From the NCBI RefSeq assembly GCF_036895565.1, contig NZ_CP145904.1:930001-994000 (forward strand): a DNA stretch of 64,000 nucleotides, in the 5' to 3' direction. Positions within the stretch are counted from its first letter, which is position 1; each line of letters begins with the position of its first letter. The stretch comes from Flavobacterium sp. KS-LB2. Lineage in GTDB: Bacteria; Bacteroidota; Bacteroidia; Flavobacteriales; Flavobacteriaceae. A program made the position numbers and the translations under genes. Below, in pieces: positions 5,301 through 61,450 of the stretch. The notes below the pieces were generated by a model, which was given only the letters and a program-made list of their open reading frames with translations, searched no databases and had not been told where the DNA came from.

Positions 5301-8300
5301 CCGTATAATTTCCTGCTATCAAACCTATTGCTGTTGCTGTGGTTTGAATTGGATTTGTATTCCAAGAATAGGTGAGAGTCCCTATTCCTCCAGTAGCATT
5401 TACCGTTGCTGAACCTGCTGCACTTCCAGCACAACTGATATTTGAAGGATATGATATGGAAGCTGAAATACCGCTGGGTTGTGTGATTTCTATTCCCGCA
5501 ATTGTTTTACTACTTCCATTTGCATCGGTAACTTTAATGTCATAAATGCCTGCGGCCAAATTACTAAAAGTATAATTCGTAGCCGCTGAATTAACAATAC
5601 TACTGATTGTTCCTCCACCTTGCAAAGTCAATAAATAATCATAAGGTCCAACAGATTGTTGTGTAATATCAACTTTAATGGCTCCAGTCAAATAGCTAAA
5701 ACACAATACATCGATTTGTGCTGCAGTATCTTCTTGAATAAGTAAAGGTAACGGTGACGTTAAGTTAAAATTTAATACCACAGGGTTACAAAGTCCATCG
5801 TTTATAGTTAATGAATATGCACCCGCTGGAACATTTGAAATGTCCTGGCTTGTCGTAAGTGGAAAACCGCTCGGTCCTGACCAAAGGTATGTATAAGTAC
5901 CTGAACCTCCTGTAACAGTAACATTGATCGCTCCATCATCGGCATCAACAGTGCTCACATTAAAACCATTAAAGTTAGACAATATACTGGATGTATTTAT
6001 AGCAGGATTTACCGTTATTTTATACTCCAAAGGTGGTCCCGAACAAGAAACCCCGTTGTTTTCGAAAGTTGCTGTTGCAGTGTAAATTACAGTTAGTGCC
6101 GTTGCTGTTACATTTACCAAAGTCTGAGTTTGGATAGTTTCTGTTCCCGAACCTGTTGCTCCAGTAATTCCAGTAGGAATAGTTGCTGTCCAATTAAAAG
6201 TTACATTTCCAGTAGTAAGACTTGATATACTTATCAAAGAACTAGCACTTCCAGAGCAAAGTATTTGATTTGGTCCCGAAAATTGAACTTTTGGAGAAGG
6301 GTTAACTGTTACTACTGCCATAAATGAAGGGCCTGCGCAGGTTCCAGATTTTGGAGTTACGGTGTATGTAGCCGTTTGAACATCATTTGTAGGATTAGTT
6401 AATGTACCTTTAATCGTTGTTTGATTTGCCAATGCTACACCTCCCGTCATTCCTCCCGTAACTACAGGTGCCGACCACGAATACGTGGTTCCAACCGGGA
6501 CAGTATTTCCCGCACCGTCTGCAGGAACTATTGAAAAAGAAGTATTAGAACAGATGGTTTGCGCTTGTGCGTTCGTGATAGAAGGGACTGGATTCACAGT
6601 AATAGTATAAGGAAAGGTAACACCTTGACAGCTTACACCACTGTTTGATTCAGCTTTCGCTAAATAAGTAACCACAATAGGAAGATTAGTGGTATTAATT
6701 AATGTCTGAACCGGAATTGTATTGGTCCCATTAGTCAAAACCCCAAGTATTCCAGAGGGTTGCAAGGCGGTCCAAGTAAAACTTGTACCAGATGAACTGG
6801 TTAAATTGACAACGGTGCTTGAAGATCCAGAGCACACCACTTGATTTGAAGGTGTAAATGAAACTGTCGGAGATGGATTTATAGTGATGGTAAATGTTTT
6901 GGATGCTCCAGAACAACCATTTACATTTGGAGTAACGGTAATAGTAGCAATAATAGGTGTAGTTCCGTTATTTATTGCAGTAAAAGCAGTTATTTCTCCC
7001 ACGCCGTTTGCTCCTAATCCTATATTTGAATTGCTATTGGTCCAATTGTAACTCGTATTTGGAATTGTTCCCGAAAATAAAGTAGCGGTGGTTGATTGGC
7101 CGTTACAAACCGTTTGATTCGAAGGTAAATCAACTGTAGGTGTTGGGTTAACAGTGATGATAAAAGTGGTTTGAGTTCCAAAACAGCCATTTGCTTTCGG
7201 CGTTACAATTATAGTTGCAATTACTGGTGTTATTCCAGTATTTATTGTTGTAAAACTTGGAATACTGCCACTTCCTGTAGCGGCTAAACCTATTGAAGGT
7301 GTATCATTCGTCCAATCAAAAGTAGTTCCAATTACACTTCCAGTAAAAAGGATAGAGCCACTGGCGATGCCATTACATTTTACCAGATTGGTTATCGAAT
7401 TAACGTTCGGTCGCGGATTAACAGTTATTTTAAATGTTTTGGATAAACCCTTACAACTGTTAGCTGAAGGTGTTACGGTAACTGTTGCAATTACTGAAGT
7501 TAAACCTGTATTAATTGCTGTAAATGATGGAATGGAATTGCTACCAGAAGCTGCTATTCCAATGCTTGTAAGATTGGATGACCAATTATAGGTTGCGCCT
7601 GAAACATTTCCTGAAAAATTAATCAGTGTACTTGTTTCTCCAGCACAAAGAATAATATCTGTGGTCGCATTTACATCTGGTTTTGGATTTACAGAAACCA
7701 CAACATCAAACGGTAAACCTATACAACCATTGAATGATGGTATTATGGTATAAGTTGCTGTTTGAACAACAGTAGTTGTATTGTTTAATGTTCCAGTTAT
7801 ATTAGTTTGATTTGTTCCTGAAATCCCACCAGTAATTCCACCCGTTAAAATTGGATTACTCCAAGAATAAGTTGTTCCTGAGGGAATATTATTTCCAGCA
7901 CCGTTAGTTGGGCTAACAGTGAAAGACAAACCACTACAACTAATCGCAGTCATATTCGCAGTAATAATTGGTTTTGGTTTTACAGTTATGGTATAAAGAA
8001 ATGTAGCTCCAGCACAAGTTGCTCCACTTGATAATGTTGACGTGGCATTATACGTTACAACAATATTGGCATTTGTATTATTGACTAAAGTTTGCGCAGA
8101 AATTGTATTGGTTCCGCTTATTGCGATTCCTGATATTCCTGATGGTTGGATTGCCGTCCAATTTAAAGTTGCTCCAGCAACACTGCTTAATGTTACCAAA
8201 GCCGAAGTATCACCTGAGCAAATGGTCTGGTTTGGTATTGAAAAGGTAACTACTGGAGACGGGTTTACAGTAATGATAAAGTTTTGCGATGTTCCTGTAC

Positions 8301-11238
8301 ATCCATTAGCTGTTAGGGTAACACTTATTGTTGCTGTAATAGGGTTTCCACTCGTATTTTTTGGTATAAATGAAGTTATATTTCCCGTTCCGTTTGCAGC
8401 TAAACCGATAGCAGCATTAGAATTAGTCCATGTATAAGTAGTTCCTGAAACGTTATTGCTAAAAATTATTGGACTAGTTGCAACTCCATTACAATACTCT
8501 TGATTGGTCAAGACCAATGGAGTGGGAGTGGGATTAACAGTGATAGTAAATGTTTTTGGAATTCCATTGCAACCCAATGCATTTGATGAAGTAACGGTAA
8601 TAGTTGCCACAACAGGGGATATTCCTACATTTGTAACAGTAAAAGCTGGAATATTACCAGCTCCGCTTGCCGCTAACCCAATGGAAGGGGTATTATTGGT
8701 CCATGAGAAGGTAGTTCCAACTGCATTACTGCCAAAAGTAATTGTATTTTGAAGAGCAGTATTGCAAAGCACCGAGTTACTGACAGAGTTTACTGTAGCC
8801 TCTGGATTGACGGTGATAGTAAATGTTTTTGCAGGTCCTGAACATCCATTTAGTGAAGGTGTTACTGTTATTGTAGCAGTCAAGACTGTTGTTCCGGCAT
8901 TAGTAAGAGTAAAAGGATTTATATTTCCAGTACCTGCAGCCAATAAGCCTATTGCTGTATTGTTGTTTGTCCAACTGTAAACTGCACCAGCAAGTCCCCC
9001 GCTAAACAAGATAGCGTCGGATTGCTGTCCTTTGCACTTTTGTTGGCTTGTAATATCATCGACAGCTGGTGTGGGTTTGATAGTGACGGAGCTGTTTACG
9101 GTTGTTGTTCCACATTCATTGGTTACTTTCAAAGAATAGGAAAAGATTCCTGAATTAGTATAACTAATAGGACCGGGGTTCGCAGTTGTCGCAGTTGCTG
9201 GTATTCCATTTGGGAAACTCCACTCGTACGTCAGGGGAGATTGGGTCCCACAGTTAATTACAGTCGCTGTTGGATTAATTACTGTTGAAACTCCCGTTTG
9301 GCAAAGAGGTGCAATTGGCGCAATTGTAACCTTTGGAGGTTGTTTAACGGTGAACGTTTTAATTACAGATTGGGAAGGCGTGCAAGAATTAGTTGCGGTT
9401 AGCTTAATGCTATAAGTTCCAGGCTCAGTGAAATTAAAGGAAGCGTTAGCACCAGTTTGATTTGAAATTGGTGCAATAGTTGTTCCACAACTTGATGGAA
9501 CAAAAGTTGTACTCCACACATAAGTTGGGGGACTGCAAGAATTAGTTTCAACCGTTGTGTTTGTAGCAGTGATTGTTTGCGGTGAACAACCTGAACTTTC
9601 TGTTAGTGTAAAGTTAGGAACAAGTGGAGCCTCAACACATATAGTTTTTGTTATTTGATCAAAGGAGCATGAGTTACCACCTGCTTTTAATGTAATTGTA
9701 TAAGTTCCTGGTGTATTGAAAATTGGACAAATTGCATTTGTGCCAGATATCCATGTGTTTATGTTTGTAGATCCATTGTTATCGCTACCTAATGACCCAC
9801 TATTTAGTGTGAAGCCTGTTGAAGGAGAAATTATCCAAACTAATTTTGGAGCTCCACAGGAAGTATTTGTCGGGATTTCCCCTCCAATTGTTGTGTTGGT
9901 TAAGCATATTGCATTATTAGTACAAATTATTGGTTGTGGAATTGTAAAATTAACAATTGGAGCAATGGAAACACGTATTGGGACAACGCTCCCCCCTGAT
10001 GTATCACAAGGGTTTGAAGCTTCAATATTTGCTGAAAAGGAATTTTGATAAATTGTTGAACCGTTATTACTAGTAATCCCGCACGAAGATTTTAAAAAGG
10101 TATGAGTAACAGAAGCTGGGGGAGGATGACTAAAAGTCAAAGGTGCCGAACCATCATTAAAAGTAACAGTATAAATAGTTCCCGGAGGATTGTTTTCTGT
10201 TCCTGTGATAGGAAACGTTAGTGGTGTTGATATACAAATATTCGTATTACCGGGATTTCCTATTCCTACTGCTGGATTATTACCTACAAAAACTTTGTAT
10301 ATTCTCGAAATCGAACATCCATTTTGACTTTTTACAGTGTATGTCAATGTCCATAGTCCAACAGCATAGGTATGTGTAGTTGTTGAAAATGTAGTTGAAG
10401 TAAAATCAGGAGTTGAATCACCCCAATTTATCGAATAATTATTGTTTGTTGCTGATGTAGTAGAGGCATTGATAAATTGAATATCTGAGTTCGTATTTGT
10501 ACATACCCTAAAAGTCTTAAAGCCATTATAAATATCAGAAACTGCATCTGAATTTAAAGTTGTATCTGGATTTTGAATTGTGACAACTTTGGTTATTTTT
10601 TTTGCACATCCATTATTATCAGTAACAGTCAAAGATACATTAAACGATTGTGTCGAATTTCCGTTCGTATTACTAAAAACATGAGTGGGATTTGGATTTG
10701 TAGAAGTATTTGCACTGCCATTTCCTCCAAAATCCCATAAATAACTAAAATTAGGGTTTCCAGAAACTGTTGATGTAAATTGTATTGCAGTTCCTGAGCA
10801 CTGATTATCTGAAAAAGTAAAATTTACAACTGGTAATGGATTTACTATAATTGTTACTGTTTTATTACTAGAAAGAGCAACATCTTTACCTTCACTGTCC
10901 TTAACAGTAGTTAAAATATAGGAGAAAGTTCCAGGTGCATTCGTTGGTTGAGAAACGGTTACACTTTTGTCATTTCCTGTTGTTGAAACATTTATTTGAG
11001 TTCCTCCATTTATGGTATAAGTAAAAGTATAAGGGGCTTTTGCATTATCGTCAACCTCAAATGTTATTACAGGCTGTGCTGCATTCAAACATACTGTTGC
11101 ATTTCCTATTATTTGCCCAGTTGGATCTGCAACTGTTTTTAGTTTTATGATTTCCTCTGTTTTATTTGAAGAATAAGCAGGACTAGCATTAAAAATTAAT
11201 AAAACGAATAAAAATATAATCTTGTAAAATTGTTTCAT
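2344..11238 (-). CDS. giant SprB-like T9SS adhesin, 2964 aa, type B CTD
   Basis: A secreted repeat adhesin. Order of parts: signal peptide (about 1-23); PKD domain (about 137-222, motif YLWDFGGNGS); a second PKD-like segment near 265-315 and Cys-rich Ig-like segments to about 720; about eleven 90-residue PKD-like repeats (about 727-1745; recurring YxWTN and FTITVNP); about thirteen SprB repeats (about 1750-2785; recurring GTYNVTVTDANxC and ITEPNG); a last PKD (motif VWDFGDGSF, about 2825); and a gliding-associated type B C-terminal domain (about 2871-2964, opening VPNAFTPNND). Type B domains direct export by T9SS, and members use SprF-type partners, here the next gene. SprB of F. johnsoniae is the cell-surface gliding adhesin, so attachment or gliding is likely. 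The frame is intact despite sitting in a decayed island. A possible -7 box lies at 11300-11307. Confidence 0.93.
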   Translation of the reverse strand: MKQFYKIIFLFVLLIFNASPAYSSNKTEEIIKLKTVADPTGQIIGNATVCLNAAQPVITFEVDDNAKAPYTFTYTINGGTQINVSTTGNDKSVTVSQPTNAPGTFSYILTTVKDSEGKDVALSSNKTVTIIVNPLPVVNFTFSDNQCSGTAIQFTSTVSGNPNFSYLWDFGGNGSANTSTNPNPTHVFSNTNGNSTQSFNVSLTVTDNNGCAKKITKVVTIQNPDTTLNSDAVSDIYNGFKTFRVCTNTNSDIQFINASTTSATNNNYSINWGDSTPDFTSTTFSTTTHTYAVGLWTLTYTVKSQNGCSISRIYKVFVGNNPAVGIGNPGNTNICISTPLTFPITGTENNPPGTIYTVTFNDGSAPLTFSHPPPASVTHTFLKSSCGITSNNGSTIYQNSFSANIEASNPCDTSGGSVVPIRVSIAPIVNFTIPQPIICTNNAICLTNTTIGGEIPTNTSCGAPKLVWIISPSTGFTLNSGSLGSDNNGSTNINTWISGTNAICPIFNTPGTYTITLKAGGNSCSFDQITKTICVEAPLVPNFTLTESSGCSPQTITATNTTVETNSCSPPTYVWSTTFVPSSCGTTIAPISNQTGANASFNFTEPGTYSIKLTATNSCTPSQSVIKTFTVKQPPKVTIAPIAPLCQTGVSTVINPTATVINCGTQSPLTYEWSFPNGIPATATTANPGPISYTNSGIFSYSLKVTNECGTTTVNSSVTIKPTPAVDDITSQQKCKGQQSDAILFSGGLAGAVYSWTNNNTAIGLLAAGTGNINPFTLTNAGTTVLTATITVTPSLNGCSGPAKTFTITVNPEATVNSVSNSVLCNTALQNTITFGSNAVGTTFSWTNNTPSIGLAASGAGNIPAFTVTNVGISPVVATITVTSSNALGCNGIPKTFTITVNPTPTPLVLTNQEYCNGVATSPIIFSNNVSGTTYTWTNSNAAIGLAANGTGNITSFIPKNTSGNPITATISVTLTANGCTGTSQNFIITVNPSPVVTFSIPNQTICSGDTSALVTLSSVAGATLNWTAIQPSGISGIAISGTNTISAQTLVNNTNANIVVTYNATSTLSSGATCAGATFLYTITVKPKPIITANMTAISCSGLSFTVSPTNGAGNNIPSGTTYSWSNPILTGGITGGISGTNQTNITGTLNNTTTVVQTATYTIIPSFNGCIGLPFDVVVSVNPKPDVNATTDIILCAGETSTLINFSGNVSGATYNWSSNLTSIGIAASGSNSIPSFTAINTGLTSVIATVTVTPSANSCKGLSKTFKITVNPRPNVNSITNLVKCNGIASGSILFTGSVIGTTFDWTNDTPSIGLAATGSGSIPSFTTINTGITPVIATIIVTPKANGCFGTQTTFIITVNPTPTVDLPSNQTVCNGQSTTATLFSGTIPNTSYNWTNSNSNIGLGANGVGEITAFTAINNGTTPIIATITVTPNVNGCSGASKTFTITINPSPTVSFTPSNQVVCSGSSSTVVNLTSSSGTSFTWTALQPSGILGVLTNGTNTIPVQTLINTTNLPIVVTYLAKAESNSGVSCQGVTFPYTITVNPVPSITNAQAQTICSNTSFSIVPADGAGNTVPVGTTYSWSAPVVTGGMTGGVALANQTTIKGTLTNPTNDVQTATYTVTPKSGTCAGPSFMAVVTVNPSPKVQFSGPNQILCSGSASSLISISSLTTGNVTFNWTATIPTGITGATGSGTETIQTQTLVNVTATALTVIYTATATFENNGVSCSGPPLEYKITVNPAINTSSILSNFNGFNVSTVDADDGAINVTVTGGSGTYTYLWSGPSGFPLTTSQDISNVPAGAYSLTINDGLCNPVVLNFNLTSPLPLLIQEDTAAQIDVLCFSYLTGAIKVDITQQSVGPYDYLLTLQGGGTISSIVNSAATNYTFSNLAAGIYDIKVTDANGSSKTIAGIEITQPSGISASISYPSNISCAGSAAGSATVNATGGIGTLTYSWNTNPIQTTATAIGLIAGNYTVTITDANNCSIQKLATITEPNGITASISSQTNVLCFGNNTGSATVSATGGTGALTYSWDTIPMQTTETATGLIAGTYNVTVTDANSCSKILTVLITQPSADLTTTISNSTNVSCFGGSNGNTTVSVNGGTSPYTYYWNTNPIQTSATATGLTAGTYNVTVTDANGCVDSSPVTITEPVGMYATISAQTDVFCSGNSSGTATVSINGGTAPYGYSWNTIPVQTAATATNLAMGTYTATITDANGCTTTTQATITEPNGIVISIASQTNVDCYGNNTGAVSVLASGGTGILSYSWDTTPVQTSLNATGLIAGTYHLTVTDANNCTKVQTVNITQPDDINITTDLEKDITCFNDANGEIKITITGGTLNYNYTWTKDGIPYATTEDLTHLSPGIYMITVSDANNCGPKTVTFTITEPPILAVSLISQTNILCFGEATGAIEIAAVGGTPALSGYNFAWTGPNGFTSSNKNLTAITAGTYNVLVSDNSGCSKALSVTLTQPTAIVLAATTTPIICYSSDDATITLAINGGVTPYTIAWSNLGGGTFQDNLSAGDYLITVTDSNNCVKTLNVNIPEAPIFTINPVVKNISCFGSHDGSINLNIIGGIAPVRLVWDDNAVAGNVRNNLGPGSYTVTIVDSKPCTIKKTFIILEPQPLILSANVDNAFDCDNANSGAINLLVAGGTPPFTYAWSNGSTTEDLVNIPAGNYLVTVIDSRGCSKQAQYSINRPPPIEIGVATKTEFDCETKFVKQTFVAQVSGGAPPYQLTWSSGTVSGSNNEMMNTSQNGTAILYVTDALGCKANYSFNVKLQSLGTPSFISTSYSLVTYGTYSIIDPIQFTNTTTGDFISMVWDFGDGSFSTDLNPVHTFKNPKEYTVTQTVTYPFGCIYVQKIIFNVEKGYLFVVPNAFTPNNDTMNDTFRPVTKALKNVRLDIYDTWGSLIYSETGDTLKGWDGKIKGQNAENGNYYCKISAETFYGTIITENQPFVLIK

Positions 11239-11829: not shown

Positions 11830-11906
11830 TGGTAGCGAGACCGAGATTTGAACTCGGGACCTCAGGGTTATGAATCCTGCGCTCTAACCAACTGAGCTAT
11901 CTCGCC
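11830..11906 (-). tRNA. tRNA with CAT anticodon, probably elongator tRNA-Met
   Basis: On the minus strand the cloverleaf is complete: acceptor GGCGAGA/TCTCGCT (with a G-U first pair), D-arm GCTC...GAGC, anticodon loop TTCATAA (CAT), T-arm CCGAG TTCAAAT CTCGG, discriminator A, and an encoded CCA (11830-11832). The first base pair is formed and the anticodon stem lacks three stacked G-C pairs, so it is not initiator tRNA. A CAT anticodon could also belong to lysidine-modified tRNA-Ile2, which sequence reading alone does not exclude. The 3' half is duplicated at 1-40, so this gene is the probable integration site of the island to its left. Confidence 0.93.
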
Positions 11907-53167: not shown

Positions 53168-53270
53168 TACCTAGTCGGTAAAAAAAGGTTAAGATTTACA
53201 TGTAAAAGGTTTGAGTTCAATACCTTTAATCGTTTCAAAACAACAACTACACAACACAATACATCATACA

Positions 53271-56123
53271 ATGCCAAAAGATACATCTATAAAATCAGTT
53301 TTAATAATAGGCTCAGGTCCTATTGTTATTGGTCAAGCGTGCGAATTTGATTATGCGGGATCGCAATCAGCTCGCTCTATTCGTGAAGAAGGAATTGAAG
53401 TTATTTTGATCAATTCCAATCCGGCAACAATTATGACCGACCCATCCATGGCCGATCATATCTATTTGAAACCGTTAACAACCAAATCAATTATTGAAAT
53501 TCTTAAAGCACATCCTCAAATCGATGCTGTTTTGCCTACAATGGGAGGACAAACAGCTTTGAACTTGTGTCTGGAAGCCGATGAAAAAGGAATTTGGGCT
53601 GATTTTGGAGTGAAAATGATTGGTGTTGATGTAAATGCCATTAACATTACCGAAGACAGAGAGCAGTTCAAACAATTGCTTAAAAAAATAAATGTACCCT
53701 CGGCACCTGCTGAAATATGTACATCTTACCTTCGCGGGAAAGAAATTGCACAAGAATTTGGGTTTCCATTAGTGATTCGTCCTTCGTTTACTTTAGGTGG
53801 AACTGGAGCGGCAATTGTCTATAAAAAAGAAGATTTTGATGAACTTTTAACCAGAGGTTTAGAAGCATCACCGATTCATGAGGTGTTGATTGACAAAGCC
53901 TTGATGGGTTGGAAAGAATACGAATTGGAATTGTTGCGAGATAAGAACGACAATGTTGTTATTATCTGTTCAATCGAAAATATGGATCCTATGGGAATTC
54001 ATACTGGAGATTCGATTACCGTGGCACCAGCCATGACCTTATCAGATACTACATTCCAAAAAATGCGTGATTACGCTATTTTGATGATGCGCAGTATTGG
54101 TAATTTTGCGGGAGGTTGTAACGTGCAGTTTGCCGTATCGCCAGATGATAAAGAAGATATTGTTGCTATTGAAATCAATCCTCGTGTGTCGCGCTCTTCG
54201 GCATTAGCATCAAAAGCAACGGGTTATCCTATTGCAAAAATTGCTTCTAAACTAGCTTTGGGATACAATTTAGATGAATTGCAAAATCAAATCACCAAAT
54301 CGACTTCGGCACTTTTTGAACCGACTTTGGATTATGTGATTGTAAAAATTCCGCGTTGGAACTTTGATAAATTCGAAGGTGCTGACAGAACATTAGGACT
54401 TCAAATGAAATCCGTAGGGGAAGTAATGGGAATTGGTCGTTCGTTTCAAGAAGCCTTACACAAAGCCACTCAATCTCTAGAAATTAAAAGGAATGGGCTA
54501 GGAGCTGACGGAAAAGGATATACAAACTACGAGCAAATTATAGAGAAACTGACTTTTGCGAGTTGGGATCGTGTTTTTGTGATTTATGATGCTATTGCGA
54601 TGGGAATTCCGTTGAGCCGCATTCATGAAATTACTAAAATTGACATGTGGTTCTTAAAACAATACGAGGAACTGTATACCTTAGAAAAACAAATTGCTAC
54701 CTATAAAGTAGAATCTTTACCAAGAGAATTGTTGCTGGAAGCCAAACAAAAAGGTTTTGCCGACAGACAAATCGCGCACATGATGGGTTGCTTGGAAAGT
54801 CAAGTACATTCATTGCGCACAGAAATGAATATCAATCGTGTATTCAAATTAGTAGATACGTGTGCAGCCGAATTCAAAGCCAAAACGCCGTATTACTATT
54901 CGACTTTTGAAGCTGAAATCGAGAAAGCAGACGGGACGCGTTATGTAGATAACGAAAGCGTAGTTACCGATAAAAAGAAAATAATTGTTCTTGGGTCAGG
55001 CCCAAATAGAATTGGACAAGGAATCGAATTTGATTATTCCTGCGTGCATGGTGTGCTTGCCGCCAAAGAGTGTGGCTACGAAACCATCATGATTAACTGT
55101 AATCCAGAAACGGTTTCAACTGATTTTGATACAGCCGATAAATTGTATTTTGAACCAGTTTTCTGGGAGCATATTTACGATATTATCCAACACGAAAAAC
55201 CAGAAGGCGTAATCGTACAATTAGGAGGACAAACGGCCTTGAAATTGGCAGAGAAGCTTTCTAAATACGGTGTGAAGATTATAGGAACTAGCTTTGATGC
55301 TTTGGATTTAGCCGAAGACAGAGGGCGTTTCTCTGATTTATTAACGGAATTGAATATTCCTTTTCCACAATTTGGAATTGCTGAAACGGCTGACGAAGCT
55401 TCAGCACTAGCTGATACGTTAGACTTCCCGTTATTGATTCGTCCTTCGTATGTGTTGGGTGGTCAGGGAATGAAAATTGTAATCAACAAGCAAGAACTAG
55501 AGGAGCACGTGATCAATTTATTGAAAACCATTCCAGGGAACAAATTGCTTTTAGATCATTATTTAGATGGTGCCATTGAAGCCGAAGCCGATGCGATTTG
55601 CGATGGTGAAAATGTGTACATCATAGGAATTATGGAGCACATAGAGCCTTGTGGCGTGCATTCTGGTGATAGTAATGCCACTTTGCCACCGTTTAACTTA
55701 GGCGAGTTTGTCATGCAACAAATAAAAGACCACACTCATAAAATTGCTTTGGCACTTAAAACGGTTGGTTTAATCAACATACAGTTTGCGATAAAAGATG
55801 ATATCGTGTACATCATCGAGGCCAATCCTAGAGCGTCTCGTACCGTACCGTTTATTGCAAAAGCCTACGGAGAACCGTATGTGAACTATGCTACAAAAGT
55901 GATGTTAGGACACAATAAAGTAACTGATTTTACCTTTAACCCACAGCTAAAAGGATTTGCCATCAAGCAACCGGTATTCTCTTTTAGTAAGTTTCACAAT
56001 GTGAACAAAGCATTAGGACCAGAAATGAAATCAACTGGAGAAAGCATCTTGTTTATTGATGACCTAAAAGACGATCAGTTCTACGAATTGTACTCCAGAA
56101 GAAAAATGTATTTGAGTAAGTAA
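53271..56123 (+). CDS. carB: carbamoyl-phosphate synthase large subunit without MGS domain
   Basis: A 950-residue enzyme that builds carbamoyl phosphate from bicarbonate, ammonia and two ATP for pyrimidines and arginine. Start at ATG 53271 (MPKDTSIKSVLIIGSGPIVI); the frame is open to a TTG at 53211, but the family opens at MPK. Both synthetase halves are complete: GSGPIVIGQACEFDY and GSGPNRIGQGIEFDY nucleotide-binding starts, ATP-grasp parts with GGTGAAIV and GGQGMKIV. E. coli CarB has about 1073 residues; here the protein ends soon after LGPEMKSTGESILFIDDL, so the C-terminal allosteric MGS-like domain is missing. I think this is normal in Flavobacteriia. carA is not in the window. A decayed copy of its 3' end is at 60801-60925. 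Confidence 0.96.
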   Translation: MPKDTSIKSVLIIGSGPIVIGQACEFDYAGSQSARSIREEGIEVILINSNPATIMTDPSMADHIYLKPLTTKSIIEILKAHPQIDAVLPTMGGQTALNLCLEADEKGIWADFGVKMIGVDVNAINITEDREQFKQLLKKINVPSAPAEICTSYLRGKEIAQEFGFPLVIRPSFTLGGTGAAIVYKKEDFDELLTRGLEASPIHEVLIDKALMGWKEYELELLRDKNDNVVIICSIENMDPMGIHTGDSITVAPAMTLSDTTFQKMRDYAILMMRSIGNFAGGCNVQFAVSPDDKEDIVAIEINPRVSRSSALASKATGYPIAKIASKLALGYNLDELQNQITKSTSALFEPTLDYVIVKIPRWNFDKFEGADRTLGLQMKSVGEVMGIGRSFQEALHKATQSLEIKRNGLGADGKGYTNYEQIIEKLTFASWDRVFVIYDAIAMGIPLSRIHEITKIDMWFLKQYEELYTLEKQIATYKVESLPRELLLEAKQKGFADRQIAHMMGCLESQVHSLRTEMNINRVFKLVDTCAAEFKAKTPYYYSTFEAEIEKADGTRYVDNESVVTDKKKIIVLGSGPNRIGQGIEFDYSCVHGVLAAKECGYETIMINCNPETVSTDFDTADKLYFEPVFWEHIYDIIQHEKPEGVIVQLGGQTALKLAEKLSKYGVKIIGTSFDALDLAEDRGRFSDLLTELNIPFPQFGIAETADEASALADTLDFPLLIRPSYVLGGQGMKIVINKQELEEHVINLLKTIPGNKLLLDHYLDGAIEAEADAICDGENVYIIGIMEHIEPCGVHSGDSNATLPPFNLGEFVMQQIKDHTHKIALALKTVGLINIQFAIKDDIVYIIEANPRASRTVPFIAKAYGEPYVNYATKVMLGHNKVTDFTFNPQLKGFAIKQPVFSFSKFHNVNKALGPEMKSTGESILFIDDLKDDQFYELYSRRKMYLSK

Positions 56124-56145
56124 TTACTTGAAGTAGTGATAATGA

Positions 56146-56169
56146 AAAAGCCCCGTTTGGGGCTTTTTT
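56146..56169. terminator. bidirectional terminator after carB
   Basis: AAAAGCCCC/GGGGCTTTT with a GTTT loop, A-run on one side and T-run on the other. It separates carB from the opposing helicase gene. Confidence 0.85.
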
Positions 56170-56200
56170 AGTTTTGTAGTGTTTTGTTGTAGAGATGCTT

Positions 56201-59200
56201 TTAACCCACAGACATTTTAGCTGATTCTTTCCATAGATAATTGGGCATTGGTTCATTTAATTCCCATTTAATATTCATTGGTTTTGAACCCTCAGTTTCT
56301 TTGAAATTTCCTTCGCCGATAAATACATAACCCATTGTGTTACCATTTTCATCATTTGCTTTTTCTCTTATAAAAAGTAAAATCTTTTTCTCATTTTCTA
56401 AATGTTTGACATATGATAAGCCTTTACCTGAATCTGGTCTTGATGAATTCTGACTCTGCCAATGAAATAAAGTTTCACTTATTGCATAATCATCATACAT
56501 TGTGGTAGGAGAAAAATTTTCTTCCGATTTAATTAAATTAATGAAAAGAAGTTCCGTATTTAATTCTTTAACATCTAAAATACCTTCAAGACTCATATAT
56601 TTTTTATCAAAAGTAGTTTTGCCAAATGCTACTGCTATTTGATCTCTGGTATATCGAGCATGAACTTTTAATGGTTGTTTATATGGTAAATCAATATCTA
56701 TTTCTTTGAAGTCAATTCTGTCAATTAAAATCTCTAAAACTTCTATAATTTCTTTTACTAAAACTTTATTTTTTCCAATTTGATTTATACTTTCCTCTAA
56801 AGATGTATAACCTCCCGCATTTTGCCATACATCATAATGCAACATCAACAGCATAATTTTTTCACTTTCGCCATAATCATTTACTTCAATTTTAAATTCT
56901 TTTTTTGCGAGTTTAAGAATAAAATTAAAATAAGTAGTTGAACTTGATGACAGCCATTTTTTACTTATCGCAGAAAGAATTTGCTTTTCATTCAAATTAT
57001 CGAAATTATCAATAACTCCTGCTCTTTCACAAAGCCTTGACCAACTATCTTTTTTATAAATAGCCTCTAATTTAATATTGTATAATTCAATAAAATTCTG
57101 AATTGTTAATGGTAGATTGGTTTGATGTTGATAATTAGTAATTTTAGTAATCAACTGATTTATATTCAGAGTTGTTGCTCTTTTTATATTTTCTAAAACT
57201 GTTTCTTTAGTTTTTTTCTCTAATACTATTGAACAACCTAAAGGTAAGTGCGGAAAATCATCTTCAATTTCTTTTAATACTGAAGTTGTTGTTTTTCCTA
57301 TTAATGCTCTAAATTTATTTTCAAAATCATATTCAGGTCTTGAATTACCAACAAAATCTAAAACAGTCAAACAATCTTTACCTTCTGCTAGACGCAATCC
57401 ACGACCTAATTGTTGTAGAAAAACAGTTAAACTTTCAGTTGGACGAAGAAACAAAACGGTATCTATTTCAGGAATGTCAACACCTTCATTAAAAATATCT
57501 ACGACAAATAAATAATTGAATTCTTTCTTTTTAAATTGTTCTCTTATTTTTTCTCTTTCACTTGAATTTTTACTGGTTAATACTTCAGCTTTTAGGCCTG
57601 CTAGATTAAATTTTTCAGTCATGAAAATTGCATGTTCTACTGTAGCGCAAAATCCTATTGTACGAACATCGTTTATGTCATTCAAATATTTCTCAAGTCC
57701 TTTAATAATTTCTCCAACTCGAATATTATTTTTGGTATACAAACTTGTCAATTCGCTAGCGACATACTTTCCTTTTTCCCATTTTACATTCGTTAAATCA
57801 ATACTATCAGTAATTCCAAAATATTGAAACGGTGATAATAATTTTTTATTTAAAGCTTCCGGAAGTCTTATTTCGGCTGCTATTCGACCACAAAAATCAT
57901 CTAATATATTTTCTCCATCCATTCTCTCAGGAGTAGCTGTTAATCCCAACAATACCTTTGGTTTAAAATAATTTAATATTGGTCTATAAGTAGATGCAGA
58001 GATATGATGAACTTCATCAACGATTATAAAATCATAATATTCTGCTGAAAGATTTATGTTTTTTAGTCTATTATTTAAGGTTTGAACTGATGCAAAAACA
58101 TATTCATTGCTTGTTGGTTCCAATCCATCTACCCATAATTCGCCAAAATTATTATCTTTTAGTACGCCCTGAAAAGTAGCTTTAGCTTGTTGTAATATTT
58201 CTTTTCGATGTGCTACAAATAGTAGTCTTTTCGATTTGTTATTTGTCTTGAAACTTTTATAATCAAATGCAGAAATGACTGTTTTTCCAGTTCCAGTTGC
58301 AGCAACTAACAAATTCTTAAATCTATTATGAATTGTTCTTTCAACTTCTAATTTTTCAAGTATTTCTTGTTGATAATGAAATGGTTTTATATCAAAGAAA
58401 TTAATATTTGGAGCGTATTCTTTGGAGAATCTACCATCTTTTAATGCTTTAACTAATTTTTCCGCATCTTTATTTTTGTCAAATAATTCAAATTCTGAAT
58501 TTTGCCAATATGCTTCAAATGTTTTTCTGAATTTATCAATTATGTGACTAACTTCCTTTGTAGTGATTTTTAAATTCCATTCTAAACCATCTGTTAAAGC
58601 GGAACGAGAAAAATTAGACGAACCAATATAACCAGTATGAAAACCTGTGTTTCTCTCAAATAAATAAGCTTTTGCATGCAATCTTTCATTTCCGGTATTA
58701 TACGAAATTTTAACTTCTGTGTTTTCTAATGAAGATAAAAGTTCAACAGCTTTTGCATCTGTCGCACCAATATAAGTTGTTGTTATAACTCTGAGCTTTC
58801 CGCCTCTGTTAGTAAACTCTCTAAGTTCTTTTTCTAATATTCTAATTCCCTTCCATTTTATGAACGAAACTAATAAATCGATTTTATCAGATGACAAAAT
58901 TTCCTTTCTCAGCTCACTTTCGAGAGTTGTTCCTGAATTTCCTCCTGTAAAAAGTTCACTATGAATCAATCTAGTGTAAGGCGTTATTTCTTTAAGATGT
59001 AAATCTAAATTTGTGAAATGAGCATCAACTTTGGTAAAAACTGCTTTTAATATTTTACCCTCAGTTTCAATTAAGTCATCTTTAAACTCTTCCTTTCTTA
59101 ATTCATCTTTTAAAAATAAAATGATTTTATTGGCAATTTCAATTTGGTTTTCCAAAATATTTTCGCCTTTAATCAAGGTAAAAGCATGTTGAATTGTTTT

Positions 59201-59341
59201 TCCAATATGTGCGGATAATAATTGTGCAGCTTCTGCTTTATCAATTGAAGTAGTTTTTACTTGAAAAGTGTTTTTATCTAATTCACTTAACTTAATACTT
59301 ATAAGTTTAGTTACTAATTCTTCATACAAACCTTGATTCAT
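56201..59341 (-). CDS. PLD nuclease - DEAD/DEAH helicase - DUF3427 protein
   Basis: A 1046-residue soluble protein with three parts. N-terminal phospholipase-D-like nuclease (about 125-285) with one HxK motif, RLHAKAYLFE, then IGSSNFSRSAL; it has one catalytic half, so it would need to dimerise. Superfamily II helicase (about 318-680): motif I AATGTGKTVIS, motif II IIVDEVHH, motif III LTATPERMDG, motif VI QQLGRGLRL. DUF3427-like C-terminal part (about 690-1046) of unknown function. Such proteins are patchily distributed in bacteria and often lie in variable regions, and several antiphage systems combine PLD nucleases and helicases. Its start overlaps the Nudix stop (ATGA), so the two are one translation unit. 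Surroundings suggest insertion at the carB end. Defence is inference. Confidence 0.9.
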   Translation of the reverse strand: MNQGLYEELVTKLISIKLSELDKNTFQVKTTSIDKAEAAQLLSAHIGKTIQHAFTLIKGENILENQIEIANKIILFLKDELRKEEFKDDLIETEGKILKAVFTKVDAHFTNLDLHLKEITPYTRLIHSELFTGGNSGTTLESELRKEILSSDKIDLLVSFIKWKGIRILEKELREFTNRGGKLRVITTTYIGATDAKAVELLSSLENTEVKISYNTGNERLHAKAYLFERNTGFHTGYIGSSNFSRSALTDGLEWNLKITTKEVSHIIDKFRKTFEAYWQNSEFELFDKNKDAEKLVKALKDGRFSKEYAPNINFFDIKPFHYQQEILEKLEVERTIHNRFKNLLVAATGTGKTVISAFDYKSFKTNNKSKRLLFVAHRKEILQQAKATFQGVLKDNNFGELWVDGLEPTSNEYVFASVQTLNNRLKNINLSAEYYDFIIVDEVHHISASTYRPILNYFKPKVLLGLTATPERMDGENILDDFCGRIAAEIRLPEALNKKLLSPFQYFGITDSIDLTNVKWEKGKYVASELTSLYTKNNIRVGEIIKGLEKYLNDINDVRTIGFCATVEHAIFMTEKFNLAGLKAEVLTSKNSSEREKIREQFKKKEFNYLFVVDIFNEGVDIPEIDTVLFLRPTESLTVFLQQLGRGLRLAEGKDCLTVLDFVGNSRPEYDFENKFRALIGKTTTSVLKEIEDDFPHLPLGCSIVLEKKTKETVLENIKRATTLNINQLITKITNYQHQTNLPLTIQNFIELYNIKLEAIYKKDSWSRLCERAGVIDNFDNLNEKQILSAISKKWLSSSSTTYFNFILKLAKKEFKIEVNDYGESEKIMLLMLHYDVWQNAGGYTSLEESINQIGKNKVLVKEIIEVLEILIDRIDFKEIDIDLPYKQPLKVHARYTRDQIAVAFGKTTFDKKYMSLEGILDVKELNTELLFINLIKSEENFSPTTMYDDYAISETLFHWQSQNSSRPDSGKGLSYVKHLENEKKILLFIREKANDENGNTMGYVFIGEGNFKETEGSKPMNIKWELNEPMPNYLWKESAKMSVG

Positions 59342-59739
59342 AATTCTAATTTTAATAATTCTTCAACAATTGGTTTATCTGCTTCGGCCCAATCTAAATC
59401 TTTAAGTTCCCATACATTTAATAACTTAAATTTTTTATGTTCAGCAAGTTTTATCTCACCTGAAACAAAATTTGCTAAAAAAGGAATCAACTTGATTTGA
59501 AAAATTCCGTAGTCATAAATACTATCTGAAAGTTTTTTAATAATTTCAATTTCAATATTTATTTCTTCAACTATTTCTCTTTTTATAGAATCAATTTCAC
59601 TTTCTTTTTTTTCTAATTTACCTCCGGGAAATTCCCATTTCAATGGTAGTTTCATTTTTTCACTTCTTTGTGTAACTAGAATTTTTTGGTCAAAAAAAAT
59701 GATGGCGCAGGTTACTTTAATAGGTTCTTCGTCTAGCAT
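59338..59739 (-). CDS. Nudix (MutT-like) NTP pyrophosphohydrolase
   Basis: A 133-residue Nudix hydrolase. The Nudix box can be read from FPGGKLEKKESEIDSIKREI on to VEEINI: GX5E, X7, REUXEE are all present, but the Gly before the last hydrophobic residue is Asn (EEINI). The start VTCAIIFFDQKILVTQRSE and the WEFPGGK segment resemble MutT/CTP-pyrophosphohydrolase-type members that clean damaged or modified nucleoside triphosphates. Its stop overlaps the helicase start by four bases (59338-59341). Operon and pairing with a nuclease-helicase suggest either nucleotide signalling or removal of a modified nucleotide; neither is shown. Confidence 0.88.
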   Translation of the reverse strand: MLDEEPIKVTCAIIFFDQKILVTQRSEKMKLPLKWEFPGGKLEKKESEIDSIKREIVEEINIEIEIIKKLSDSIYDYGIFQIKLIPFLANFVSGEIKLAEHKKFKLLNVWELKDLDWAEADKPIVEELLKLEL

Positions 59740-59825
59740 ATTTCACTTTTTATTAAGTTCCAATATTACAAAATCCAACCCTCATTAAAATACGAAAAAC
59801 CATAAATTAGGAAATTTAATATAAA

Positions 59826-59855
59826 AAAAGTGGAAACGCTACATTTCCACTTTTT
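59826..59855 (-). terminator. terminator after the dienelactone hydrolase gene
   Basis: AAAAGTGGAAA (59826-59836) with TTTCCACTTTT (59844-59854) forms an 11-bp stem with a 7-base loop; A- and T-runs make it work in both directions. It isolates the Nudix-helicase unit from the hydrolase message. Confidence 0.8.
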
Positions 59856-59872
59856 CATCAAACCGTATGATT

Positions 59873-60766
59873 TTACTTCTTTTTGAGTTCCTTTTTAAAA
59901 AAATCTATGGTTCTTGTCCAGGATAAAGTAGCTGCTTTTTCATCATAACGCGGCGTGGTGTTGTTATGAAAACCATGATTTACTCCTTCATAAAAATAAG
60001 CGATATGTTGTACCTTGTTCTTTTTAAGGATGGCTTCATAAGCAGGCCAACCTTCGTTTACACGAGTATCTAGGCTGGCATATTGGGCTAGGATAGGGGT
60101 TTTTATAAGTTCGGCTTCGGCAGCTGTGGGTTGGCCTCCATAATACGGAACGGCAGCGCCCAAAGTTGGGATTTTTACCGCCATCATATTCGCAATCCAA
60201 CCTCCAAAGCAAAATCCTACTACGCCTATGTGTCCGTTGCAATCTTTGTGTGCTTTAAGGTAGTTGTAGGCTGCAATAAAGTCTTCGAGCATTTCCTCTC
60301 GGGTTCGTTTTTTTTGCAATTCGCGCCCTGCATCATCATTTCCGGGATAACCGCCCAGTGGCGATAATGCATCGGGTGCCAAAGTGATGAATCCTTCCAC
60401 AGCAGCTCTTCGGCCTACATCTTCGATATACGGATTCAGTCCGCGGTTTTCATGTACCACTATGATTCCAGGTAATTTCTTTTTGCTTCCAATGGGTTGG
60501 GATAAGAGTCCTTTGATTGTTCCGCCACCTTTGGGAGAATCATAAGTGATGAATTCTGATTTTAACCTTGGATCATCGGGCTGAATCAAAATAGAATCGA
60601 TATAATTAGGCGTCATAAAACTCAACAGGGAAGGCAAAGTAAGCGTTCCTACAGCAAATAAAGATAGTTTTTCTACAAAGGCGCGGCGGTCAATTTTATT
60701 GTGGGCGTAATCATCGTATAAGTCAAATACTTCTTGGCTGATGTCTTCTTTGGTTATTTTTTTCAT
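59873..60766 (-). CDS. dienelactone hydrolase family protein, secreted
   Basis: A 297-residue hydrolase. N-terminal part with a twin-arginine-like signal (DRRAFVEKLSLFAVGTLTLP, about 28-47), so it may be exported folded. The catalytic triad is Cys in GVVGFCFGGW, Asp in SLDTRVN and His in GVNHGFHN (about residues 182, 233 and 265), as in dienelactone hydrolase and YghX-like proteins. The cap region PDALSPLGGYPGNDDAGREL is typical. It is in the segment between carB and the carB remnant, with a terminator separating it from the Nudix gene. The natural substrate is unknown. Confidence 0.88.
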   Translation of the reverse strand: MKKITKEDISQEVFDLYDDYAHNKIDRRAFVEKLSLFAVGTLTLPSLLSFMTPNYIDSILIQPDDPRLKSEFITYDSPKGGGTIKGLLSQPIGSKKKLPGIIVVHENRGLNPYIEDVGRRAAVEGFITLAPDALSPLGGYPGNDDAGRELQKKRTREEMLEDFIAAYNYLKAHKDCNGHIGVVGFCFGGWIANMMAVKIPTLGAAVPYYGGQPTAAEAELIKTPILAQYASLDTRVNEGWPAYEAILKKNKVQHIAYFYEGVNHGFHNNTTPRYDEKAATLSWTRTIDFFKKELKKK

Positions 60767-60800
60767 AATATTTTTTTTGATGCTACTAATTTAAGAAAAA

Positions 60801-60925
60801 AAGCAACGCTTTTCTCTTTTAGCAAAGTGCATATTGGAAATAAAACTAGGAACATAAATGAAATCAACAGCTGAAAGTATCTTGCTTATTTGAAAAGAAC
60901 TAATGCTACGCCAGACCTAAGATGT
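60801..60925 (+). pseudogene. decayed direct copy of the carB 3' end
   Basis: This intergenic stretch aligns with the last part of carB (about 55965-56112) in the same orientation and order. Strong blocks: TTCTCTTTTAG (60813-60823 versus 55977-55987); TAGGAACATAAATGAAATCA through CTTATT (60847-60890), which in carB is TAGGACCAGAAATGAAATCA through TTTATT; TACGCCAGA...ATGTATT (60907-60928) versus TACTCCAGA...ATGTATT. Read in frame, the middle block gives MKSTAESILLI against carB MKSTGESILFI, but two in-frame stops (TAA, TGA) and indels break it. Differences fall mostly at third positions, so it was once coding. It lies 34 bases past the dienelactone hydrolase start. Confidence 0.75.
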
Positions 60926-61009
60926 ATTGTATAGTATATAAACTTGAATTAGTATCCGTGAAAAAAGTTCATGAAGGACGCATTTTTATTGGTTGGATTT
61001 AAAAACAAT

Positions 61010-61450
61010 CTAATTTTTTAATATGATTCTCATGTGGTAGTGTTGCATGCCTACTTCCATAAAAGGCGTGTCATAAATTTTAAAGCCTAAGTTCAAATAA
61101 AAAGGTACGGCAGTAGCTCTGGCGTGGCAAACTACTTCATTTATCTTATGGGATTTACAAAACGACAGCAATTGAATCACTAATAGTTTACCGATTCCTT
61201 TTCCCTGCTGATTGGTTTCTACGGCCATTTGCATTAATTGCGTTTTGGTTTGTTCCTCGTCTAATGGAACCAAAACTACGCATCCAATAACGGTATCATT
61301 TTCGATAGCTACAAAATGCCATGCTTTTTCATCGTGCATTTCCCAAGCATGGTCAGCAATACCAATGGGTCTCAGTAAAATTTGGTTTCTTAATTGCCTT
61401 TCTAGTTGGTAATATGGATTTGTTGTATGGATTAACTGGACTGAAATCAT
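61010..61450 (-). CDS. GNAT family N-acetyltransferase
   Basis: A 146-residue soluble acetyltransferase. The acetyl-CoA-binding motif is QQGKGIGKLLV (about 81-91), preceded by the LMQMAVETNQ strand and followed by the ARATAVPFYLNLGF segment typical of the family. Members acetylate amines of proteins, metabolites or drugs; no substrate can be read from this sequence. It stands between the carB remnant and the broken PhnB-like gene, on the same strand as the latter. Confidence 0.88.
   Translation of the reverse strand: MISVQLIHTTNPYYQLERQLRNQILLRPIGIADHAWEMHDEKAWHFVAIENDTVIGCVVLVPLDEEQTKTQLMQMAVETNQQGKGIGKLLVIQLLSFCKSHKINEVVCHARATAVPFYLNLGFKIYDTPFMEVGMQHYHMRIILKN

Follow-up and report, generated by a model that had tools for sequence, protein, structure and literature searches.

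The carB 3′ end of Flavobacterium as a recombination hotspot: scars consistent with one-sided homology and joining at microhomology

Why does a decayed copy of the end of carB, a housekeeping biosynthetic gene, lie more than 4 kb downstream of the intact gene, and how did the genes between them arrive? The question is raised by a 64,000-nt stretch of Flavobacterium sp. KS-LB2 (contig NZ_CP145904.1, positions 930,001 to 994,000; hereafter the window), from a genome that is a single contig of 3.41 Mb and whose nearest named carB relatives are Flavobacterium. We find that displaced carB ends recur in the genus, around different genes, and that this end of carB is a recombination hotspot at a core gene, whose scars fit one-sided homology and joining at microhomology. 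Ordinary DNA recombination, and not a dedicated mobile element, most likely brought the extra genes. The features on which the argument turns are as follows (window coordinates).

53211–56123, + strand: live carB, a mechanically called open reading frame (ORF) of 970 codons
55965–55970, + strand: AAGCAA within live carB, the 6 nt shared at the joint with the region upstream of the dienelactone hydrolase (DLH) gene
56144–56170: terminator-like hairpin of carB, AAAAAGCCCCGTTTGGGGCTTTTTT, found by eye
56201–59341, − strand: PLD-helicase-DUF3427 protein (PADLOC mREase_IV, type IV restriction-like)
59338–59739, − strand: Nudix protein (PADLOC PDC-S07), overlapping the helicase gene by 4 nt
59873–60766, − strand: DLH family protein, the last gene of the insert
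60801–60806, + strand: AAGCAA at the joint and right border of the insert, common to carB and to the DLH upstream region as found in loci L167 and L165
60801–60928, + strand: displaced, decayed carB 3′ end, corresponding to carB positions −158 to −11 from the stop (profile and alignment)
60960–60988: probable decayed carB terminator behind the copy, by eye
61010–61450, − strand: GNAT acetyltransferase, where the resident downstream region begins

The gene itself likely starts about 20 codons into the called frame, at MPKDTS, where the ORF of locus L034 begins (loci are labeled L and genomes G). Hairpins similar to that of the window stand behind many live carB ends, and behind copies, in relatives.

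The window copy is well separated from chance similarity. In a blastn comparison with the region at 60.5–61.3 kb, the carB end matches at 76% over 93 bp (E 9e-14), together with a second, weaker collinear piece (E 0.27). The local alignment score of the copy is 73, whereas 2000 dinucleotide shuffles average 17 and never exceed 34, against a best score of 31 elsewhere in the window when carB and the copy are set aside. The whole genome holds two matches to the carB end, namely carB itself and the window copy. A Flavobacterium carB-end profile locates the copy 4678–4805 nt past the carB stop (E 5e-13), and all three of its forward frames contain stops. The decayed same-strand copy reported by the original prediction, which had proposed this comparison with shuffled controls, is thus real, and its assignment of the intervening genes (Nudix, PLD-helicase-DUF3427, and DLH) is right.

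To place the window among its relatives (one genome per species), 398 genomes of the genus were searched with the window's carB end, a query that under-counts divergent genomes; 383 had a match and 67 had two or more. These 67 were searched again without the terminator, which left 30 of them with one match only, and the regions were fetched, so that at 93 loci the 10 kb after carB could be searched by profile. We find 25 extra carB 3′ pieces in 20 of the 383 genomes, the window included, all on the same strand, downstream, and within 8.2 kb of the gene, with lengths of 59 to ~575 nt; the profile search gave no opposite-strand hit at E<=1. The count leaves out a marginal 34-nt hit in G028 (locus L228, E 9e-4), a marginal 46-nt hit at L305 (E 0.001, 10.4 kb downstream), and six fragmented assemblies with the second match on another contig (G069, G183, G192, G250, G274, and G341), although the piece in G250 is a clear copy by profile (E 2e-14). 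Nine genomes with short second matches of 24–49 nt were set aside as chance. As a control, a same-strand 3′-end copy within 8 kb was found for 4 of 901 non-carB genes, two of which (at L160 and L164) look like tandem paralogs, versus 19 of 77 carB genes; this carB set is enriched for known cases, and less biased frequencies are 20 of 383 genomes or three of the 49 named loci L033–L081 (of which 46 extend at least 2 kb past carB). The comparison with relatives that the original prediction called for therefore yields the same kind of copy in 19 further genomes, with different modules beside it.

The copies are best read, from their sequence context, as the older, displaced carB 3′ end, with DNA having entered between them and the live gene. 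For six of the 25 copies, the right flank is collinear with the live-carB right flank of relatives, from within 16 nt of the stop: L148 with L038, L149 with L167 and L177 (91%–93%), L151 with L278, and L152, L157, and L158 each with L057. The flank of the marginal L228 piece matches L153 in like manner. These six sites and the gene maps agree with an insertion between the old end of carB and the live gene. The evidence for the window is indirect. GNAT is the first gene behind the carB copy in the window, L034, and L154, and the window flank matches the other two at 76%–77%. In Flavobacterium granuli (L046), a 52-residue GNAT fragment (46% identity, E 2e-12) begins ~80 bp behind live carB; next come AB-hydrolase and phosphoribosyltransferase genes, as behind the GNAT gene of the window. 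The expectation that insert-free relatives pass from carB directly into the sequence right of the copy is thus borne out in the six clear cases and, for the window itself, only through these flanks.

The modules differ by genome, as was foreseen for a carB terminus that is reused. In place of the helicase, Nudix, and DLH genes of the window, we find a zeta-toxin-like kinase module in L034, L035, L145, L148, and L152 (decayed in L157), a DUF4953/DUF5117 protein module in L051 and L150, and a membrane transport protein module in L156 and L160; further cargo includes SIR2 (PADLOC PDC-S25), a PDC-S27 ATPase, a GajA/OLD-like ATPase, an SLFN-AlbA protein, and others. Several of these are defence-like, and the cargo is probably in part anti-phage. 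Among module ORFs of 80 aa or more, 33 out of 38 are convergent to carB. Pfam and PADLOC scans of 20 of these 38 module proteins detect no integrase or transposase (one, in L143, is a RusA-like resolvase), and none of the three genes of the window insert is a recombinase. By these scans and the gene maps, the interval holds different accessory genes at a single core gene, free of mobile-element genes except for an integrase-like gene at L061.

The left edges of the copies are variable. The copies run to the carB stop or nearly so and begin 59–226 nt before it in 24 cases and ~575 nt before it in the longest (L143), a spread to which decay of the left edge may add. Microhomology is a trait of homology-facilitated illegitimate recombination (HFIR), and at three of the five joints that could be read, carB and the donor sequence coincide over a short stretch: AAGCAA (6 nt) in the window, ATTTGAAA (8 nt) at copy c2 of L156, and CGG (3 nt) at copy c1 of L147. 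Upstream of DLH, the window agrees with relatives up to about AAAAAAAGCAA and then diverges; carB has ATCAAGCAACCGG, and the window has AAAAAAAGCAACGCTTTTCTC. All six letters are carried upstream of DLH by L167 and L165, other relatives having AAGCGA, AAGCCA, or AAGTGA.

What entered resembles a carB locus. DLH stands near carB in 22 loci, and the insert therefore looks like the carB-downstream stretch of a donor rather than a free element. The DLH protein of the window is 90%–94% identical to six that stand before any GNAT gene and 84%–87% identical to four behind one (one of them in two pieces); that of L226, behind two DUF808-like genes and without GNAT, is 84% identical. At other joints too, the last gene is a carB neighbor elsewhere: a YiaA-like gene for L035 (14 loci), YkgJ for L153 (12), and f0 for L156 (23), the locus named being included in each of these counts, as the window is for DLH. 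The insert of L147 is gene-free and amounts to ~118 nt from a carB right flank. A second joint in L034 cuts into an older zeta module and repeats 270 bp at 94%, comprising the start of the zeta-toxin gene, its upstream region, and the carB end. The window insert thus looks like a carB-downstream stretch of another Flavobacterium, anchored in carB by what we infer was homology and closed by microhomology.

On this basis we regard it as rather probable that a carB-downstream stretch of a related bacterium entered the carB–GNAT interval by one-sided homology and microhomology joining. The incoming DNA would have run along the relative's chromosome from carB through the helicase, Nudix, and DLH genes, and its strand would have paired with resident carB by homology. 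Its other end, non-homologous DNA upstream of DLH, would have been joined to resident carB 158 nt before the stop, at the 6-nt sequence that is visible in both. carB would stay whole with the donor supplying its end, and the resident end would be left as an untranslated copy, whose decay we see. Such events would have been repeated many times at carB in Flavobacterium, the type of outcome being HFIR. A module carrying a carB piece at its far side could afterwards pass between species by two homologous crossovers and be lost through recombination between the two carB repeats; this passage and loss are suggested because joints and module identities are shared.

Some module-plus-scar units do appear to have spread between species. 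The same joint is found in different species for modules f104, f60, and f61 and for the zeta module of L035 and L145; in L034, L148, and L152, the zeta joint aligns without being identical. Nucleotide identity of the module exceeds that of the adjoining carB for f104 (96.4% versus 82.6%), f61 (96%–97% versus 87%–90%), f92 (97.1% versus 86.3%, with no carB copy beside f92 in L165), and the zeta module of L145 and L035 (96.6% versus 90.0%).

Several observations weigh against this account. A homologous crossover in carB is never seen directly: carB is intact, no donor tract is visible in it, and the carB ends of different species are mostly 82%–93% identical. Later recombination within each species could have erased such a tract. 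Read three-way, the joints of L153 and L152 lack a clear common stretch. Modules f60, f93, and the remaining zeta pairs shown do not clearly exceed carB in identity (differences of −0.10 to +0.03). In six pairs the tract of high identity starts ~60–280 nt after the stop and does not clearly reach live carB, and in the three pairs with a copy in both genomes it extends from 60–280 nt after the stop to where the copy begins. A pair of homologous crossovers in the carB pieces on either side, with later trimming by recombination within each species, would explain these limits, and other mechanisms might. When the copies are ranked against 108 live ends, 12 of the 25 have that of their own genome among the five nearest, where ~1.2 would be expected; some copies may thus derive from their own genome or have been homogenized with its live end. 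Among the relatives' loci compared, live carB passes into an intact GNAT gene at no site. Finally, Flavobacterium johnsoniae is reported not to be naturally competent under conditions in which Riemerella columbina was (PMC7965970).

The kinship of copies with their own live end is the point at which replication template switching has to be weighed. Here the fork would leave carB behind its terminator, copy foreign or ectopic DNA, and return upstream, so that the carB end is copied twice; the two ends would then both be native to the genome, as in a long target-site duplication. The short shared stretches at joints, the closeness of some copies to their own end (98.8% in L149), a terminator region in L160 that is identical between the copy and the live end, and the lack of a donor tract in live carB would all follow. 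It leaves unexplained the repeated presence, as last gene before the joint, of one that neighbors carB in other species, and some copies are closer to many other genomes' ends than to their own; we consider this explanation unlikely. A tandem duplication in place of the carB end and its downstream region, with later divergence and no foreign DNA, would likewise accommodate those copies that are closest to their own live end. We give it hardly any credence, since what lies between live end and copy varies from genome to genome and is missing from relatives that have the empty arrangement, and several shared modules are far closer than carB.

Integrative elements specific to tRNAs or to the 3′ ends of other genes leave a conserved gene's 3′ end duplicated around the inserted DNA, and they have an integrase and a fixed crossover. 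The direct repeats flanking the carB modules recall such elements, and the original prediction had compared the site to tRNA insertion. Site-specific integration by a tyrosine or serine recombinase, with the carB 3′ end as attachment site and the enzyme lost or acting in trans, could also draw on L061 (a metagenome-assembled genome, G014), where an integrase-like gene stands 842 bp after carB. No integrase is found among the 20 module proteins scanned, however, and the variable left edges show no fixed crossover. The tRNA-like reading fails because the repeat length varies and a recombinase is missing; the joints lie on shared stretches, and the L147 insert contains no gene at all. A phmmer search with ORFs from five of the genome's six Phage_integrase loci (the sixth, a 50-aa ORF, is probably not the integrase) matched one of 815 downstream ORFs, that of L061, and the fetched stretch of the L061 contig contains no carB copy. 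We therefore regard site-specific integration as very improbable, and the entry of a relative's carB-downstream DNA by homology at one end and microhomology at the other remains the reading we prefer.

Known frames for the carB scars are HFIR, the displacement of effector genes in the type VI secretion system (T6SS) of Vibrio cholerae, and hotspots at flanking core genes. HFIR has been described in Streptococcus pneumoniae, Acinetobacter baylyi, and Pseudomonas stutzeri and is rare in Escherichia coli conjugation (PMC3240628). One end is homologous, the other is joined illegitimately, and a mobile element is not needed, as at carB; in contrast to the laboratory transformation and conjugation from which HFIR is known, where insertion is coupled to deletion (PMC3240628), the carB events form a series found in nature, all at a single core gene, and the displaced end survives as a scar. 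T6SS effector genes of V. cholerae are displaced sequentially, and HFIR was proposed (Kirchberger et al. 2017, PMC5361080). The module is likewise anchored upstream, the old 3′ end shifted downstream, and successive modules stacked, but the anchor there is the upstream part of an effector module (PMC5361080), whereas carB is a housekeeping biosynthetic gene and the cargo beside it is unrelated. Hotspots that lack mobile elements and are driven by recombination at the core genes on either side show the same turnover of accessory genes between core genes without an integrase, and homologous recombination was proposed for them (Oliveira et al. 2017, PMC5635113). That proposal is one of double crossovers and rests on statistical inference (PMC5635113), whereas the scars and joints at carB show single insertions.

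Many bacterial hotspots lack a mobile element, and gene entry at them is mostly inferred statistically. At carB single events can be read, with a resident piece, an incoming piece, and the position of the joint; the scars give the order of arrival, and displaced 3′ ends of core genes can be searched for elsewhere to find such events. With restriction-like, SIR2, GajA/OLD-like, and zeta-toxin-like genes among the cargo, the site is relevant to the question of how such genes, when they serve defence, move around with neither phages nor plasmids. More tentatively, and with doubt prevailing, the modules may be integrase-free Flavobacterium cassettes whose sole determinant of mobility is the piece of core gene they carry, ~60–220 nt of carB with which they would enter relatives, stack, and leave precisely. 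If so, they would enter a relative's carB end by two homologous crossovers without harm to carB and leave through recombination between the repeats.

Other sources of the duplication were considered and rejected. For the cargo, the ~1.5-kb flanks of 30 helicase loci show no direct flanking repeat and inverted ones in four, in a test that misses the window's own repeat. In longer stretches, with the window repeat recovered as a positive control, no direct repeat is shared by the left and right flanks at 16 of the 19 helicase loci outside the window; the repeat therefore belongs to the carB site and not to the helicase cargo. The other three (L221, L227, and L232) have some direct repeats, which in L221 and L232 are multi-copy, ~75–115 bp long, and on either side of the helicase gene, kilobases away in L221. 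A phage origin was discarded, as the exact carB-end pattern finds no match in viral contigs (exact matches only), and tRNA involvement was discarded, as no tRNA occurs in L061, L286, or nine further loci; the sole tRNA of the window is at 11830–11906, and no Rfam family reaches its gathering score in 52.0–62.5 kb. Unusual conservation of the carB end was dismissed as a cause: codon-corrected synonymous identity over the last 30 codons is not exceptional, 98 of 922 windows being as high or higher.

Some further observations concern the cargo and its surroundings. In all 19 helicase loci outside the window (L213–L227 and L229–L232), where the helicase is 79%–85% identical, the Nudix gene precedes the PLD-helicase-DUF3427 gene; the carB end is absent from 18 of these stretches and present in L226. 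The helicase and Nudix genes (mREase_IV and PDC-S07) are likely a two-gene defence unit. The contig of G014 (L286/L061) ends ~20 kb after carB, and the genes behind its integrase-like gene include, by eye, a type I restriction system. Of the nine short second matches set aside as chance, that of G085 may be genuine: its 26 nt lie 1.1 kb downstream of carB on the same strand, at the end of a contig. In G162 (L162), the decayed remains of a carB 3′ end, together with a terminator-like hairpin, occupy 8180–8340, more than 2 Mb away from carB; they follow a 410-aa ORF that resembles exosortases by eye.

Zeta-toxin loci away from carB have direct repeats in part, and those viewed resemble either integron cassette sites or the terminator of an hflX-like gene at L251. 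In L246, L255, L257, and L260, zeta-toxin-like kinase genes stand between ~130-bp repeats that look like integron attC sites by eye, and in L257 and L260 a 48-aa small ORF follows the kinase gene. At L251, a zeta-toxin-like unit stands beside the hflX-like gene (named by eye) and is flanked, at 1363–1408 and 2233–2278, by an identical 46-bp repeat taken from the end and terminator of that gene, possibly the same scar at a second core gene.

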